Shown here one piece after another: positions 24,888 through 36,399 of a stretch of 64,000 bases of DNA. Each line of letters opens with the position of its first letter. The first letter of the stretch is position 1. The stretch lies in NCBI GenBank assembly GCA_903851415.1, contig CAINOE010000124.1, forward strand, positions 62,001 to 126,000, given 5' to 3'. The notes beneath the pieces were generated by a model. That model searched no databases. It was not told the DNA's origin and saw nothing but the letters and a program-made list of their open reading frames with translations. The DNA is from an uncultured Rhodopila sp. (GTDB lineage: Bacteria > Pseudomonadota > Alphaproteobacteria > Acetobacterales > Acetobacteraceae). The position numbers and the translations under genes were made by a program.

Positions 24888-25379
24888 TCAAACTTCCTGC
24901 TCGTCCAGGGCCAGGCGCATGCCGGCGGCGTCGCGCATGACCCGGCGCATCCACAGCGGCGGCACGCCGTTCATCAGGCGCTGAACGTTGGAGATGACGT
25001 CGTCAATGTCGCGCACCGTCGCGCTCTTGACCGGGAAGATCCGCAGCGCATGCACGCGGAAGGCGGCGAGGTCGCTCAGCCCCAGGGTGAACAAGACCGA
25101 GCAGCCCTTCAGCGCATCGACCCGGTCCACCAACGGATCGCGGCCGGTGCCGTCGTCGTCCTCCATGTCGTCCATGATGCAGGTGCCGAGCTGCTTGCCG
25201 AGGCCGCCGCCCGGACCTTTCTTGGCGACGCCGCCGGGGCCGAAATGGATCACGTCAACGAATTCCGAGCTGTCCCTGGCCACGTCGTAGAAGACGACCT
25301 GTTTGGCGGCGGCGAAATTCGCGTCGACCTGGATCAGGCTGTTCGTGGTGACGGCGATACGAAGATGCGGGGCATCCAT
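24888..25379 (-). CDS. NifX/NafY-like dinitrogenase cofactor-binding family protein
   Basis: MDAPHLRIAVTTNSLIQVDANFAAAKQVVFYDVARDSSEFVDVIHF...GTGRDPLVDRVDALKGCSVLFTLGLSDLAAFRVHALRIFPVKSATVRDIDDVI. Confidence 0.72.
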   Translation of the reverse strand: MDAPHLRIAVTTNSLIQVDANFAAAKQVVFYDVARDSSEFVDVIHFGPGGVAKKGPGGGLGKQLGTCIMDDMEDDDGTGRDPLVDRVDALKGCSVLFTLGLSDLAAFRVHALRIFPVKSATVRDIDDVISNVQRLMNGVPPLWMRRVMRDAAGMRLALDEQEV

Positions 25380-25397: not shown

Positions 25398-26291
25398 TCA
25401 GGTCATCGGTTGGTTGATCGCCGCCGTCTCGCGCCCGAAACGCTGGCGGAAGCTGGCGGGCAAAGTCACGCCGTCCGGGGTGCGGGCGCGCCATTTGTCC
25501 AGCTCCGCCAGGGGCAGAGCGCCGTCGGTCAGCGCCTCGACCGGAATGATATACAGAACGTCGCGGTGAACAACGAAGAAGTCGATCGGGTAAAGCGACG
25601 CATCGCGATACAGCGGGCTGATTTCGATCTGCAGCAAGTCGCCTTCGATGTCGGTCTTCGGGTTGTCGCAATCGAAACGGGCATGCCGGTTGAACCGGCC
25701 GGTGCGGCGGAACTGATAAAGAACGCGGTCCTCGTCGAAGAAGCGCTTCAGCTCGCCGGTGATGTCGAAAAAATACTGCGACAGCATCGCTGCGACATAG
25801 GCTTCCGGGTAGGGCTGGCGCAACGATTCCAGATAGTAAGCCGTCGCGGACTCCAGCAGTACCAAGCCGATCGGCGTGATCGCGAGCGACAAAGCGAGCT
25901 TGTGAACGGTGCCGTTGAACCAGATGATGCCATCGTCGATCGTAATGCGGCCTTGCGGCGTGAACGCAACGGACCAGGCGACGCGCAGGATGCGGTAAAG
26001 CTCGGCCACCACCCTCTCGCTCATGGTGCCACGCGGCATGCCGGCCGCGCGCTGCCATGTCGTTTTGCCGTCGGAGTCGGGGGTCCGGGATTGCACATAC
26101 GAATCCAGCACCATGAAGGCGCTGAAGACGCCGCGCAGTTCGTCCGTTATCAGCTCCTGCCGCGGTTCCTCGGCAGCGAAGCTCAGGGCCTTGCGTTTCG
26201 TATAGAGTTCGATCTGCCGGTATTCCGGCAGCGACAAGCGGCGATGCGAGCCGTTGGTCGAACCGGTGAGCAGGTCGTACAGCTTTACCAT
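25398..26291 (-). CDS. Uncharacterized protein encoded directly downstream of vnfK
   Basis: 297 aa; MVKLYDLLTGSTNGSHRRLSLPEYRQIELYTKRKALSFAAEEPRQEL...; operon position; no family recognised by eye. Confidence 0.75.
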   Translation of the reverse strand: MVKLYDLLTGSTNGSHRRLSLPEYRQIELYTKRKALSFAAEEPRQELITDELRGVFSAFMVLDSYVQSRTPDSDGKTTWQRAAGMPRGTMSERVVAELYRILRVAWSVAFTPQGRITIDDGIIWFNGTVHKLALSLAITPIGLVLLESATAYYLESLRQPYPEAYVAAMLSQYFFDITGELKRFFDEDRVLYQFRRTGRFNRHARFDCDNPKTDIEGDLLQIEISPLYRDASLYPIDFFVVHRDVLYIIPVEALTDGALPLAELDKWRARTPDGVTLPASFRQRFGRETAAINQPMT

Positions 26292-26355: not shown

Positions 26356-27756
<1,401 letters not shown>

Positions 27757-27773
27757 TCATGACCAAATAGCGC

Positions 27774-29632
<1,859 letters not shown>

Positions 29633-29676: not shown

Positions 29677-29690
29677 GTTCCGATCAGTAC
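29677..29690. promoter_or_regulatory. Putative VnfA upstream activator site 1
   Basis: gttc-cgatca-gtac (reverse complement GTAC-N6-GAAC). Confidence 0.55.
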
Positions 29691-29706: not shown

Positions 29707-29720
29707 GTACACGCCGGTGC
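29707..29720. promoter_or_regulatory. Putative VnfA upstream activator site 2
   Basis: gtac-acgccg-gtgc (GTAC-N6-GTgC), exactly 30 bp from site 1. Confidence 0.45.
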
Positions 29721-29762: not shown

Positions 29763-29778
29763 TGGCACGGCGGTTGCG
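29763..29778 (+). promoter_or_regulatory. Sigma54 -24/-12 promoter of the NifX-glyoxalase fusion gene
   Basis: TGGCACGGCGGTTGCG; consensus TGGCAC-N5-TTGC, about 39 bp before the ATG at 29817. Confidence 0.88.
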
Positions 29779-29816: not shown

Positions 29817-30611
29817 ATGTCCATCGACACGATCGAAAAACCACAAACCGCCTCGACCACCCTGCGGATCGCCGTCGCCAGCAAGGACGACATCCGCATC
29901 GATCAACATTTCGGCCACGCAGACTCGTTCCTGGTGTACGATGTCACCGCCAGTGGCGCGACCCCGCTCGGCCGCCGTGAAATCGCCGCCCATGCCGAGG
30001 GTGAGGACGAGGACCCGCGCCAGACCATCCTTCGCATGCTCGCCGACTGCAAAGTCCTGCTGGTCGCCAAGATCGGCCCCAACCCTCAGGAACAGCTCGC
30101 GGCTGTCGGAATCGAGGCCAGCGACATGCTGGCCGGCAAGCCGATCGATACGGCGCTGACGATGACGTTCGCGGCGAAGAACGTGGATCATGGCGACAGC
30201 CCGGTCGATTCCTCAAGCTTTCGGCTGCTGCATGCCATGCTGCGGGTTACCGACCTGGACCGTTCATTAGACTTTTATACCAACCAGTTGGGGATGCAGG
30301 TGCTGGAGCGCCGCGACCACAAGAAGAACCAGTTCTCCCAGGCGTATATCGGTTTTGGTGACGGCTTCGGACAGATGACGCTGGAGCTGGTGTCCAACTG
30401 GGACCACGAGGGCCCCTATACGCAGGGCGAATCGTTCGGCCATATCGCCATCGAGGTCCGCGGCATAACCGCCCTGTGCGACCGTCTCTCTGCTGCCGGC
30501 GTGAAGATGCCGCGGCCACCCCGCGCCCAGCGCCATGGCGAGAATATCGTCGCCTTCATTGAGGACCCGGACGGTCACCAGATCGAACTGGTCCAGAAAC
30601 CCGCTACCTGA
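29817..30611 (+). CDS. Fusion protein: N-terminal NifX/NafY-type cofactor-binding domain + C-terminal glyoxalase I (VOC) domain
   Basis: 264 aa; N-terminus TLRIAVASKDDIRIDQHFGHADSFLVYDVTASGATPLGRREI...TILRMLADCKVLLVAKIGPNPQEQLAAVGIEASDM; C-terminus RLLHAMLRVTDLDRSLDFYTNQLGMQVLERRDHKKNQFSQAYIGFGDGFGQMTLELVSNWDHEGPYTQGESFGHIAIEV...IVAFIEDPDGHQIELVQ; RBS ggaggt at 29805. Confidence 0.9.
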   Translation: MSIDTIEKPQTASTTLRIAVASKDDIRIDQHFGHADSFLVYDVTASGATPLGRREIAAHAEGEDEDPRQTILRMLADCKVLLVAKIGPNPQEQLAAVGIEASDMLAGKPIDTALTMTFAAKNVDHGDSPVDSSSFRLLHAMLRVTDLDRSLDFYTNQLGMQVLERRDHKKNQFSQAYIGFGDGFGQMTLELVSNWDHEGPYTQGESFGHIAIEVRGITALCDRLSAAGVKMPRPPRAQRHGENIVAFIEDPDGHQIELVQKPAT

Positions 30612-30623
30612 AAGGAGATTACG

Positions 30624-30842
30624 ATGTCAGTTGAATCCGCCGTCGCCTACATCAAGCGCATGCGTGAGGATCAGGAGTTCCGTCGCGTCCTCAATGAGAA
30701 CAGCGAAGACGAAGCCGCCAACTGGGCTTTCGTCAAGGAAAATGGTTACGACTTCACCATGGCCGATTTCAAGGCGGCTCAGGACGAGGTCTACAAGGAA
30801 TACGGGGTCGATCCGATGCAGGATATTCAGATCGGTTCGTAG
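30624..30842 (+). CDS. Nif11 family protein
   Basis: 72 aa; MSVESAVAYIKRMREDQEFRRVLNENSEDEAANWAFVKENGYDFTMADFKAAQDEV, Nif11 domain pattern. Confidence 0.85.
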   Translation: MSVESAVAYIKRMREDQEFRRVLNENSEDEAANWAFVKENGYDFTMADFKAAQDEVYKEYGVDPMQDIQIGS

Positions 30843-30883: not shown

Positions 30884-31228
30884 TCAGCTCCGATACCGCA
30901 GCACTGCCTCGCGGCGGTTGGTGAAGTGCTGCGCCATCCGTTCGGCGTCATCGACGGTGAGCGGAAACCCATAGGTTTTCGCGGCGGCAGCCAGTTGCGC
31001 TGCTTGCATGCCCTGGAGGGACGCAAATCCGGCCGTGGCCATGGCATTGACCCGGCTGCGCAACGCCGGATCGCCGGTGCGCGCCAACCAGCCCTCCCGC
31101 ACTGATCCCGGCGAATATTCCGGCCCGACCGCAACGGCGGACTGGCGATCGTACGTGCTGATCGCCGCCATCATGGCGATATCCGCGAGGATCATATGGA
31201 ACTGCTGATTTTCGGTTGGTGCGTTCAT
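30884..31228 (-). CDS. Hypothetical protein downstream of vnfA
   Basis: 114 aa; MNAPTENQQFHMILADIAMMAAISTYDRQSAVAVGPEYSPGSVREGWLARTGD...; starts 6 bp after the vnfA stop. Confidence 0.6.
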   Translation of the reverse strand: MNAPTENQQFHMILADIAMMAAISTYDRQSAVAVGPEYSPGSVREGWLARTGDPALRSRVNAMATAGFASLQGMQAAQLAAAAKTYGFPLTVDDAERMAQHFTNRREAVLRYRS

Positions 31229-31233
31229 GAACC

Positions 31234-32835
31234 TTATCCCTGTTGATGCGCCTCGGCGCGGCGAAACGTTTTGTAGCTGATGTTGTGCTTCTCCATGCGC
31301 AGCCCGAGGATGCGCCGTGTCAGGCCGAGTTCCTTGGCCGCCTCGGTCATGTTGCCGTTGTGCGTCTTCAGGGTCTCGACGATCATTTCGTATTCCACGG
31401 CGTGGATCTTGGCTTCCAGGCTGCAGCCGAACGCGGTGCCGGTTTCGGCGGAGGTCTGCAACGAGGGCGGCAGGTTGTAGCCGTGGATCACTGCATCATC
31501 CGACAGGATGACGGAACGTTCGATCACATTCTCCAGTTCGCGGACGTTGCCCGGCCAATGATACGTCATGAGCATGTTCAGCGCGGGCGTGGAGATGCGC
31601 TTGACCTCCTTGCCGCCCTCGGCCGAGTAGCGGGCGGCAAAATAATCCGCCAGCAGGATCACGTCGCTGCCCCGATCCCGCAGCGGCGGGACGGTAATCG
31701 GGAAAACATTCAGGCGGTAATATAGATCTTCGCGAAAGGTCCCCTTCGCCACCATGTCCGGCAAATCTCGGTTGGTCGCCGCGATGATACGCAGATCGAC
31801 CTTGATGGGACGGTTTCCGCCCACCCGCTCGAACGCCCGTTCCTGCAGCACACGCAGCAATTTGGCCTGGATCGGCAAGCTGAGCTCGCCGACCTCGTCG
31901 AGGAAGATTGTTCCGCCGTCGGCCTGCTCGAAGCGCCCCTTGCGCATCATCGCGGCGCCGGTGAATGCGCCTTTTTCATGGCCGAACAACTCGCTTTCGA
32001 CGATGTTTTCCGGCAGCGCGGCGCAGTTGAATTTGACCAGCGGCCCGTCGGCATTGGGGCTTTGATAGTGGATCGCGTTGGCGACCAGTTCCTTGCCGAC
32101 GCCGCTTTCGCCCAGGATCAATACCGTCGCCTTGGTGGCGGCAACCTTGTGAACCAGCTCGTAGACTTCCTGCATCGGCTTGGAGTTGCCGATGATGTTG
32201 GTGGGTTTGAACCGTTCCCGCAGCTCTTTCTTCAGGCGGCGGTTTTCGTTTTCAAGCCGCACCTTGGAGATGTTCTCCATAAGGTACAGTTCCACTGCAG
32301 GGCCGACCATGGAGGCGATCGTTGCGAGCAGTTCGACGTCCTGCTTCAGCAGACCGCGATTGAGATAGATACGTTCCGCGCTGATCGTGCCGACAACTTT
32401 CTTCGCATGCATGATCGGTACGCATACGAACGAGGCTTTGGCGTTGCTGTGCTCGCCATCAACCCCGGGGGTTTCGACAAAACCTGGCTGATCGCGCAGG
32501 TGCGGAACGATAAACGCCGTGCCGCTTTCCACCACCTTGGTGATGATGCCACCGTTGGGCGAATAGAGGCCGCTGGCTTTCTCGGCATCCGTCAGGCCGA
32601 AGCTTTCGTGGATGAAAATGGAATCCGACTGGTTGTCGTACAGCGCGACCATCCCGCGGCGCATCCGCAGACGTTGCCGCATGACCTGCAGCATCACCGA
32701 CAACGAAGTGGCAAGATCCTGATTTTCCGCCATGATCTGGCTGATCTGGAACAGGATCGGCAACATGTTCACACGGCATTCGCCGGTGAAGCAATGGGTG
32801 AAATCATCGACGTCGATAGCGATCGATTGCTCCAT
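31234..32835 (-). CDS. vnfA: VnfA, sigma54-dependent transcriptional activator (GAF-AAA+-Fis)
   Basis: 533 aa; GESGVGKELVANAIHYQSP, ESELFGHEKGAFTGA, C-terminal GNMTEAAKELGLTRRILGLRMEKHNI; adjacent to vnf genes. Confidence 0.93.
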   Translation of the reverse strand: MEQSIAIDVDDFTHCFTGECRVNMLPILFQISQIMAENQDLATSLSVMLQVMRQRLRMRRGMVALYDNQSDSIFIHESFGLTDAEKASGLYSPNGGIITKVVESGTAFIVPHLRDQPGFVETPGVDGEHSNAKASFVCVPIMHAKKVVGTISAERIYLNRGLLKQDVELLATIASMVGPAVELYLMENISKVRLENENRRLKKELRERFKPTNIIGNSKPMQEVYELVHKVAATKATVLILGESGVGKELVANAIHYQSPNADGPLVKFNCAALPENIVESELFGHEKGAFTGAAMMRKGRFEQADGGTIFLDEVGELSLPIQAKLLRVLQERAFERVGGNRPIKVDLRIIAATNRDLPDMVAKGTFREDLYYRLNVFPITVPPLRDRGSDVILLADYFAARYSAEGGKEVKRISTPALNMLMTYHWPGNVRELENVIERSVILSDDAVIHGYNLPPSLQTSAETGTAFGCSLEAKIHAVEYEMIVETLKTHNGNMTEAAKELGLTRRILGLRMEKHNISYKTFRRAEAHQQG

Positions 32836-33156: not shown

Positions 33157-34554
33157 GTGAGGCACGACATGAAAGCCGACGAACTCCTTGCGCTGATGAA
33201 CGAACCGGCCTGCGCGCAAAATGCCAAGTCGAAATCCGGCTGCGCCAAGCCGCAGCCCGGGGCCACACAAGGAGGATGCTGCTTCGACGGTGCCCGCAAC
33301 GCGCTGCTGCCCATCGCCGATGCTGCCCATATAGTACATGGACCCATCGGCTGCGCCGGATCGTCGTGGGACAATCGCGGCACCCGTTCCAGCGGCGCCG
33401 ATCTGTTTCGGGTCGGCATGACGACCGATCTGTCCGACATCGACGTCATCATGGGCCGCGGCGAGAAGCGCCTGTTCAAAGCCGTGCGTCAGGCAGTCGA
33501 GACGTATCACCCGGCCGGCGTTTTCATCTACAACACCTGCGTGCCGGCGCTGCAGGGCGACGATATCGAAACGGTCGCCCGGGCCGCGTCGGAACGTTTC
33601 GGCGTCCCGGTCGTGCCGGTCGATTGCGCCGGGTTCTACGGCAACAAAAACCTCGGCAACCGCATTGGGGGCGAGGCCGTCTATAAGCATGTCATCGGCA
33701 CGCGGGAGCCGGACCCGGTCCCGGAGTCCGCCCAGCGCCCCGGCATCGTCACCCACGACATCAATCTGATCGGCGAATGGAACGTCGGCGGCGAATTCTG
33801 GACCGTCGCGCCTTTGTTCGACGAACTCGGCCTGCGCATTCTCTGCACTTTCTCCGGCGATTCCCGCTTCCGCGAGGTGCAGACCATGCATCGCGCCGAG
33901 GCCAACATGGTCGTCTGCTCCAAGGCCATGATCCAGGTCGCCCGGAAATTGAAGGAGGATTACGGCACGCCTTTCATCGAGGGCAGCTTCTACGGCATTG
34001 CCGATACGTCCCGCGCCTTCCGCGATATCGCCGGCATGCTGAACGATCCGGACCTGACGGCCAGGACCGAGGCGATGATCGCCCGCGAGGAAGCCAGGGT
34101 GGAAGCCGCGCTGGCGTCGTTGCGGCCGCGCCTCGCAGGCAAGCGGGTGCTGATCTTCACCGGCGGGTACAAGTCCTGGTCGATCGTTTCCGCTATGCAG
34201 GATCTCGGCATGGAGGTCGTCGCTACCGGAACGGAAAAATCCACGGAAGAGGACAAGGCCCGCATCGTCGAACTGATGGGTCCCGACGCCCGGATGATCT
34301 CCGACAACGACCAGATCGCGCTGCTGCAGACGTTCCGCGAATGCCGCGGCGACATCCTGATCGCCGGTGATCGTTACATCTACCCGACTCTGAAGTCGCG
34401 CATTCCGTTCCTCGACATCGATCATGTCCGCCGCATCGGCTACGCCGGTTATGACGGAATGATCGAACTCGCCAGCAACCTGGTGCACGTCGCCCACTCG
34501 CCGGTCTGGGCGAAGGTCCAGGCCCGCACTGAAGCGCCGCGGCGGGCAGCTTAG
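33157..34554 (+). CDS. vnfE: VnfE, cofactor scaffold alpha subunit (NifE family)
   Basis: 465 aa; [42 protein letters not shown]...[18 protein letters not shown] alternative at 33169. Confidence 0.93.
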
Positions 34555-34558
34555 CGAC

Positions 34559-35929
34559 ATGGCCGAAATTCTTACCCCCACCAAGGCGCTCGCGGTCAAC
34601 CCGCTGAAGACCAGCCAGCCGATCGGCGCGTCGCTGGCGTTTCTGGGCCTGGCTGATTCGATGCCGCTGGAGCATGGCGCGCGCGGCTGCACGTCTTTCA
34701 ACAAGCTGTTCTTCATGCGGCATTTCCATGACCCGATCGCTTTGCAAACGACGGCGATGGATCATTTGGTTGCGGTAATGGGAGCCGATGCCAGCGTGGT
34801 CGAGGCACTTGCCACGATCTGCAACAAGAACCGCCCCGCCGTTATCGGACTGATCACCACGGGCCTGTCGGAGATGCAAGGGGCGGACATCCAGCGCACG
34901 GTCGCCGTCTTCCGGTCGCAATTCCCGATGCACAACGACGTTGCCATCATTCCGGTGGCGACCACGGATACGCTCGGCTGCATGGAAAGCGGCTTCGCCC
35001 GCGCGGTCGAGGCGATCATTACGACACTGGTGACGCCCGGGCCGAGCGTCATCCGCCATCCGCGGCGGGTGAACGTGCTGGCATCGGCGATGCTGACCCC
35101 GGGCGATATCGAGGCGGTCAAGACCTTCACCGCCGCCTTCGGACTGACCGCCGTCGTGCTGCCCGACGTCGCGGACTCCCTGGATGGCCATCTGATCGAG
35201 GACGGGTTCTCCACCCTGACCTACGGTGGCACGCCGCCGTCAGCCGTTGCGGAGATGGGACAATCTGCCGCAACTCTCGTTATCGGACCGTCCATGAGCA
35301 AGGCCGCCGATCTGCTGCGGGACAGGACCGGACTGCCGGATTATCGTTTCGCCAGCCTGATCGGCCTGGACGGCGGCGACGCCTTTTGTCAGGCGCTGGC
35401 CGAGATCGCCGGCTGCGCGGTTCCTGCGATCATCCAACGCCAGCGCGACCAATTACAAGACGCAATGGTCGATTGCCAGTTCCAGATCGGCGGCGCACGT
35501 GTGGCGATTGCCGCTGACGCCGATCTGCTGTGCGCGATGACTGGTTTCTTCACCGATATGGGGGCGGAGGTGGTCGCTGCGGTCGCCGCCGGCCGGGCCG
35601 CGCATCTGGCCGATCTGCCGATTCCGTCGGTGGTCGTGGGCGATTTGGAGGACCTGGAGTTCCTGGCGCGCGAAGAACGGGCCGACATGATCGTTACCAA
35701 TTCCCACGGGGCTGAAATTGCCCGTCGCCAGGGAACCGCGCTGCTACGCGCCGGCTTCCCGATCTACGACTCCTATGGCGCCCACACGGTAACCCGGGTC
35801 GGTTATGCCGGAACGCGCGAGCTTGTGTTCGAAGCCGCCAATCTGCTGGCCGGGCACTATCGGGAAATCCGGCCTTATCGATCCCGTTACTGGCAAGGAA
35901 CGCCGCGTGAGGACGAAGTGACATGCTGA
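34559..35929 (+). CDS. vnfN: VnfN, cofactor scaffold beta subunit (NifN family)
   Basis: 456 aa; ALAVNPLKTSQPIGASLAFLGLADSMPLEHGARGCTSFNKLFFMRHFHDPIALQTTAMD. Confidence 0.94.
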   Translation: MAEILTPTKALAVNPLKTSQPIGASLAFLGLADSMPLEHGARGCTSFNKLFFMRHFHDPIALQTTAMDHLVAVMGADASVVEALATICNKNRPAVIGLITTGLSEMQGADIQRTVAVFRSQFPMHNDVAIIPVATTDTLGCMESGFARAVEAIITTLVTPGPSVIRHPRRVNVLASAMLTPGDIEAVKTFTAAFGLTAVVLPDVADSLDGHLIEDGFSTLTYGGTPPSAVAEMGQSAATLVIGPSMSKAADLLRDRTGLPDYRFASLIGLDGGDAFCQALAEIAGCAVPAIIQRQRDQLQDAMVDCQFQIGGARVAIAADADLLCAMTGFFTDMGAEVVAAVAAGRAAHLADLPIPSVVVGDLEDLEFLAREERADMIVTNSHGAEIARRQGTALLRAGFPIYDSYGAHTVTRVGYAGTRELVFEAANLLAGHYREIRPYRSRYWQGTPREDEVTC

Positions 35930-36399
35930 GGATTGCCTTTGCTTCAAGCGACCGCACCACGGTCAACCTGCATTTCGGCGGCGCTGAAAGTCTGATGATC
36001 TACGATGTCTCACCCGGCCAGGCCGATCTGGTGGGGATCGGCGAGTTCATGAAGGCCGAAACGGTTGGAGAGACCGGACGCACCGGCCTGACCGGAACGG
36101 TGCAGGACAAGGTGCTGCCGAAGCTCGATTTCGTTGGCGAATGCGCCGCCGTCTACGCCGCCTCGATCGGCAGTTCTTCCATACGCAGACTGATGAAGCT
36201 GGGAATCCAGCCGATCATCGTCGATACCGGGCACGAGATTCTTGATCTGCTGAACGAGGTTTCGCTGGCGCTGGTCCATGGCGGCCTCGCGTGGGTTGAT
36301 CGCGCCAAGGCCAAGGCGCTCGCGGCACCGCCAAAGGAAACCGCTTCAGCCGGCGCGCCGAGGCACGTGCTGCTCAGTTCGATTGATGACCTGGAGTGA
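35923..36399 (+). CDS. vnfX: VnfX/NifX family cofactor carrier
   Basis: 158 aa; LRIAFASSDRTTVNLHFGGAESLMIYDVSPGQADLVGIGEF...; overlaps the 3' end of vnfN. Confidence 0.9.
   Translation: MLRIAFASSDRTTVNLHFGGAESLMIYDVSPGQADLVGIGEFMKAETVGETGRTGLTGTVQDKVLPKLDFVGECAAVYAASIGSSSIRRLMKLGIQPIIVDTGHEILDLLNEVSLALVHGGLAWVDRAKAKALAAPPKETASAGAPRHVLLSSIDDLE

Follow-up and report, generated by a model that had tools for sequence, protein, structure and literature searches.

The PF02579 fold is known from NifX of A. vinelandii (PDB 9ian/9iao) and from the C-terminal domain of NifB. In A. vinelandii NifX, H35 coordinates NifB-co during the hand-over to NifEN and the C-terminal helix docks on NifE (PMC13128457). 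NafY, a FeMo-co carrier, has a two-domain design in which a NifX-like cofactor domain is preceded by an N-terminal SAM docking domain. Ni-type glyoxalase I (E. coli GloA, 1f9z; P. aeruginosa GloA2, 4mtq) has the VOC fold with four metal ligands, and in human glyoxalase I the residues F62, L69 and F71 line the hydrophobic pocket (PMC6268171). The V-nitrogenase of R. palustris is encoded by rpa1370-rpa1380, and the passage that lists these genes makes no mention of a gene such as the one described here (PMC9431616).

In the window, by which we mean the whole 64 kb stretch of DNA that was analysed, a gene divergent from vnfD across a 274-bp intergenic region unites the NifX-type and the glyoxalase I-type fold in one chain (Table 1). 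It is a single unbroken ORF, and its product of 264 aa matched PF02579 (Nitro_FeMo-Co) at residues 25-115 (E 4e-19, 69 bits against a gathering cut-off of 26.3) and PF00903 at residues 136-258 (E 3e-23), while the TIGR00068 glyox_I equivalog cut-off of 120 was passed marginally (121.9 bits); by Pfam and NCBIfam the glyoxalase I-type domain is complete (residues 136-261). The original prediction of one uninterrupted 264-aa polypeptide, with a NifX-type domain followed by a complete glyoxalase I (VOC) domain, was thus confirmed by the profile searches. Within the open-access literature on vnf clusters, glyoxalase, nitrogenase and NifX, searched by title and abstract, we found no description of this architecture, of which subscription journals or annotations may hold a mention. 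From sequence comparison we propose, with a probability of roughly 0.55, that the fusion is a dedicated accessory protein of the alphaproteobacterial V-nitrogenase, in which a carrier of a cofactor precursor is combined with the metal site of a glyoxalase, repurposed to take a polar ligand.

Table 1. Features of the vnf locus and of the fusion gene in the window (positions of the 64 kb stretch).
Feature	Position	Strand	Basis
Further NifX-family protein, cofactor His absent (DANFAA)	24888-25379	-	profile searches and sequence
vnfK	26356-27744	-	TIGR02932
vnfG	27774-28127	-	TIGR02930
vnfD	28124-29542	-	TIGR01860
Sigma54-like promoter towards vnfD, TGGCACACCCCGTGC, 9/11	29597-29611	-	motif scan
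VnfA-type site GTTC-N6-GTAC	29677-29690	+	motif GT(T/A)C-N6-GTAC of A. vinelandii VnfA1 (PMC9542535)
Second, degenerate VnfA-type site GTAC-N6-GTGC	29707-29720	+	motif scan
Sigma54 -24/-12 promoter of the fusion, TGGCACGGCGGTTGC, 11/11	29763-29777	+	motif scan
NifX-VOC fusion gene, 264 aa	29817-30611	+	Pfam/NCBIfam profile matches and homologues
NifX-type domain, residues 15-121	29859-30179	+	PF02579; AlphaFold strands/helices; Foldseek match to NifX of the NifEN-NifX complex 9ian
H31, aligned with NifX H35 (NifB-co ligand)	29907-29909	+	alignment; invariant in 25 aligned fusions
Glyoxalase I-type VOC domain, residues 135-262	30219-30602	+	Pfam/NCBIfam profiles; PDB match; Foldseek
H139, metal ligand 1 (E. 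coli GlxI H5)	30231-30233	+	alignment
Signature segment H168-Y177 (HKKNQFSQAY in the window); polar H168, N171, Q175, Y177 invariant in the clade	30318-30347	+	alignment
E190, metal ligand 2 (E. coli GlxI E56)	30384-30386	+	alignment
H209, metal ligand 3 (E. coli GlxI H74)	30441-30443	+	alignment
E257, metal ligand 4 (E. coli GlxI E122)	30585-30587	+	alignment
Small protein with Nif11 domain, following gene of the putative operon	30624-30842	+	TIGR03798/PF07862; conserved neighbour of the fusion
vnfA-type sigma54 activator	31234-32835	-	profile searches
vnfE	33157-34554	+	NCBIfam
vnfN	34559-35929	+	assigned from ORF list and synteny
vnfX	35923-36399	+	NCBIfam

With NifX and the NifB C-terminus the fusion has in common the PF02579 fold and the NifB-co-binding histidine (H35 of NifX, H31 of the fusion). 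In NCBIfam searches the NifX half scored higher against NifB, through the NifX-like C-terminal part of that protein (78 bits), than against NifX (45 bits), and since the latter score missed the TIGR02663 equivalog cut-off of 112, the fusion is not NifX itself. Unlike both relatives, it is joined to a VOC domain and is specific to alphaproteobacterial vnf clusters; the NifE-docking C-terminal helices of NifX are absent from it, the NifX part running straight into a linker and the VOC domain, and an ordinary vnfX as well as another His-less NifX-family protein are also present in the vnf cluster of the window. PDB 1p90, which we take to be the core of NafY, was matched as well; the additional domain of NafY is an N-terminal SAM domain, whereas that of the fusion is a C-terminal metalloenzyme fold. 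A further relative is the operon SagB - rhodanese/ankyrin - NifX - orfN - GST-like of A. vinelandii and Azomonas, whose stand-alone NifX domain is 34-39% identical to that of the fusion; there, however, the proteins are separate and a GST-like protein (a name resting on our reading of its sequence) takes the place of the VOC domain. The pairing of a NifX domain with a glutathione fold may therefore be a wider theme. This operon, with a SagB-like first gene, was seen in the surveyed loci L197 (6434-8585), L200, L201 and L203, with vnfA and vnfENX following it in Azomonas macrocytogenes (L201).

AlphaFold2, run on 25 aligned fusions, predicted a monomer of two confident domains (pLDDT 86.8, pTM 0.68). 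Foldseek placed Ni-bound GloA2 and E. coli GlxI first, followed by methylmalonyl-CoA epimerases and NifX of the NifEN complex. The superposition on GlxI was poor (rmsd about 12 A) despite an E value of 6e-13, and we read the high rmsd as the probable result of comparing GlxI, a domain-swapped dimer, with an AlphaFold monomer in closed form, rather than as a different fold.

To characterize the VOC half, 28 sequences (27 fusions and a split copy from Azospirillum) were compared with 57 GloA-type sequences; residue numbers follow the human and E. coli GlxI reference sequences, and the E. coli alignment agrees with the PDB match to 1f9z. All four metal ligands (H139, E190, H209, E257) were invariant in 28/28, and R143, N194 and R233 of the glutathione site were kept, an arginine standing for human K150 as in GloA; the fusion has the VOC fold, the four metal ligands and R9/N60/R98 in common with Ni-type glyoxalase I. 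The pocket differs from that of GloA in every member. H168, N171, Q175, Y177 and V192, all fixed in the fusions, are equivalent to human F62, M65, L69, F71 and T101, so that the hydrophobic substrate pocket F62/L69/F71 becomes H/Q/Y in 28/28. H168, Q175, Y177 and V192 occur in 28/28 sequences versus 0-12% of GloA proteins, which keep L69 in 56/57 and F71 in 49/57; at T101, part of the glutathione site R37, T101, N103 and K150, the fusions have V in 28/28 and GloA has T in 56/57. Set against the Ni-type enzymes, these are the changes L41->Q, F43->Y and T58->V, accompanied by the HKKNQ segment, the NifX domain and a clade of its own (support 100/100).

Taken together, these substitutions make a plain methylglyoxal-glutathione lyase less likely and are compatible with a polar ligand, while the retention of R143, N194 and R233 means that some glutathione-dependent activity is possible. 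Accordingly, we regard as rather unlikely the reading that the VOC half is an ordinary lyase specific to growth on vanadium, needed as vanadate disturbs phosphate metabolism and tethered by the NifX half to the site of nitrogenase assembly. The kept metal ligands and glutathione residues and the TIGR00068 score of the window protein speak for it, but F62, L69, F71 and T101 are replaced in every member, and most fusion-bearing genomes also possess a separate GloA-type gene, 41-52% identical.

In the tree, the VOC domains of the fusions group into one clade (support 100/100), set apart by a long stem of about 1.1 substitutions per site, and their dN/dS of 0.08-0.13 indicated stronger purifying selection than on the NifX half (0.14-0.32). 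A decayed VOC domain was ruled out by the 28/28 conservation of the ligands and a dN/dS of about 0.1, as had been suggested from the four kept GlxI ligands, and the VOC half is best read, from its residues, as a repurposed glyoxalase. The same data weigh against the view that the VOC domain serves docking or dimerisation without catalysis, aiming the carrier at VnfDGK or VnfEN as the SAM domain of NafY does. Docking parts are common in NifX-family proteins, and the NifX part of the fusion stops where NifX has its NifE-binding helices (PMC13128457); however, invariance of the four metal ligands and of the pocket signature in 28/28 despite so long a stem, and purifying selection that is stronger on the VOC half, render a mere docking function distinctly improbable.

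Apart from the sigma54 promoter of the fusion, which ends 39 nt upstream of its ATG, the plus strand of the 64 kb has no perfect TGGCAC-N5-TTGC. Of 28 homologous intergenic regions, 22 had an 11/11 sigma54 promoter (null mean 0.01). In 19 (null 0.17) we found GT(T/A)C-N6-GTAC, the motif that PMC9542535 reports for VnfA1 of A. vinelandii. The two counts do not represent independent events, because the loci are related. NifA-type upstream sites were not found in the upstream region of the fusion. The promoter and the predicted VnfA site support the assignment of the gene to the Vnf regulon, which the original prediction had based on a canonical promoter 39 bp upstream, and the VnfA-type sites may also serve vnfD. 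The divergent orientation to vnfD, predicted likewise, was observed in the window and in every carrier locus mapped.

In many loci vnfH and then a Nif11-domain gene lie downstream of the fusion; in the window the Nif11 gene follows directly, and VnfH of the same genome sits on another short contig with a NifB-like ORF. That second vnf-related contig (L204, G000:C73), away from the vnfDGK locus, carries VnfH (85%), the NifB-like ORF, which bears a NifX domain, and a VnfA-like activator. A Nif11 homologue was present in most proteobacterial vnf loci surveyed, and that of A. vinelandii adjoins an apparent vanadate/phosphonate-type ABC transporter. Two further genes of the window are conserved: a 297-aa protein after vnfK (25398-26291, minus strand), found in most proteobacterial vnf loci and without a Pfam or NCBIfam match, and a 114-aa orphan between Nif11 and vnfA (30884-31228, minus strand), found in alphaproteobacterial vnf loci and without a Pfam match. 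A role as regulator or sensor, in which the fusion would sense the level of cofactor or ligand and modulate the expression or activity of V-nitrogenase, draws on the adjoining vnfA and the divergent control region in common; it is very unlikely, as the protein has no DNA-binding or signalling domain and the arrangement with vnfH fits assembly equally well.

Scanning 84,980 species genomes for VnfD yielded 77 loci together with their flanks, and phmmer comparison of the ORFs placed the fusion in the alphaproteobacterial loci, among them those of Rhodopila, Rhodoblastus, Xanthobacter, Magnetospirillum, Pararhodospirillum, a MAG of Rhodopseudomonas palustris, and MAGs of Rhizobiales, Methylocystaceae and Rhodospirillales. 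Counted by whole genome, it was present in 26/30 alphaproteobacterial-type vnf genomes, being intact in 24, frameshifted in one and truncated at the end of a contig in one. Of the remaining four, Azospirillum TSO22-1 has the halves separate, MAG L080 carries the NifX half alone, and the other two, both MAGs, lack both halves. In the 42 V-nitrogenase genomes from outside this set (beta/gammaproteobacteria, cyanobacteria, Firmicutes, archaea and others) we found neither the fusion (0/42) nor a VOC domain more than 47% identical to that of the fusion. Moreover, in an even sample of 385 alphaproteobacteria AnfG/VnfG occurred in two genomes, one of which appears to be L051 of the vnf survey (same contig coordinates), and the fusion occurred in these same two only. 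A common architecture unrelated to vnf was ruled out by these surveys, and the predicted tie to vnf loci holds for the genomes searched, which included no known anf-only genome. Order-level, class-level and plasmid searches with the whole fusion protein returned mostly GloA and by themselves give little information on the fusion. The host genome measures 7.1 Mb, and its order-level relatives in the sample belong to one family throughout; the nearest named VnfD proteins are those of uncultured Rhodopila MAGs (98%), and that of the cultured Rhodopila globiformis is at 91%. A vnf locus was also seen in an Acidobacteriaceae MAG (L083, VnfD 79%), a phylum unusual for V-nitrogenase.

In Azospirillum TSO22-1 both halves belong to one vnf cluster, where the NifX half directly precedes the Nif11 gene and the VOC half is a gene by itself, divergent from vnfD; the VOC tree placed this split copy beside all fusions, and the NifX tree was unresolved around it. 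Fusion of two parts in most genomes, with separate genes for them in one, is a classical sign of functional linkage, which we take to apply to the NifX and VOC halves. Chance is excluded, because the perfect promoter recurs in 22 of the 28 intergenic regions and the fusion itself in 26 of the 30 genomes, and an artefact from a sequencing error or from the accidental joining of two genes, to which the frameshifted copy in MAG L045 and the separate halves of one genome might point, was ruled out by an intact single ORF in 24 genomes, so that this check on the original prediction rejected the artefact.

Returning to an accessory protein of V-nitrogenase as the preferred reading, the NifX domain would hold NifB-co or a later FeV-co precursor via H31, much as NifX does, and the VOC domain would take the place of the NifE-docking tail of NifX. 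The latter domain would be a former glyoxalase I that has kept its 2His/2Glu metal site and part of the glutathione site while its hydrophobic pocket turned polar, a change suggesting that the site binds or converts a small polar oxygen ligand, or a thiol adduct, of V-cofactor assembly or protection, at the carrier. Possible ligands are homocitrate or its vanadium chelate, a glutathione adduct or a 2-oxoaldehyde; our leading guess, albeit a tentative one, is an alpha-hydroxy acid, for instance homocitrate or the chelate that it forms with vanadium. It is conceivable, though doubtful, that the VOC site is a literal vicinal-oxygen chelate site, which would bind vanadium with a bidentate alpha-hydroxy acid (homocitrate), or the ligand alone, and pass it to the precursor on the NifX domain; if true, the fusion would be a one-chain metal and ligand insertion module for FeV-co, derived from glyoxalase. 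Against an accessory role stand three alphaproteobacterial-type vnf genomes, all MAGs, that lack both halves (two) or have the NifX half only (one). V-nitrogenase is made without the fusion in Azotobacter, cyanobacteria, clostridia and archaea, so the step it performs is not universal.

With its cluster carrier and metalloenzyme fold in one chain, the fusion offers a concrete and testable candidate for a step in the placement of vanadium, homocitrate and other ligands on the FeV-cofactor, one which Azotobacter genetics could not reveal because Azotobacter is without the fusion, and cultured alphaproteobacteria in the fusion set include Rhodoblastus, Xanthobacter and Magnetospirillum. The presence of a conserved, co-regulated fusion suggests an extra, unrecognised step in building or protecting the V enzyme.
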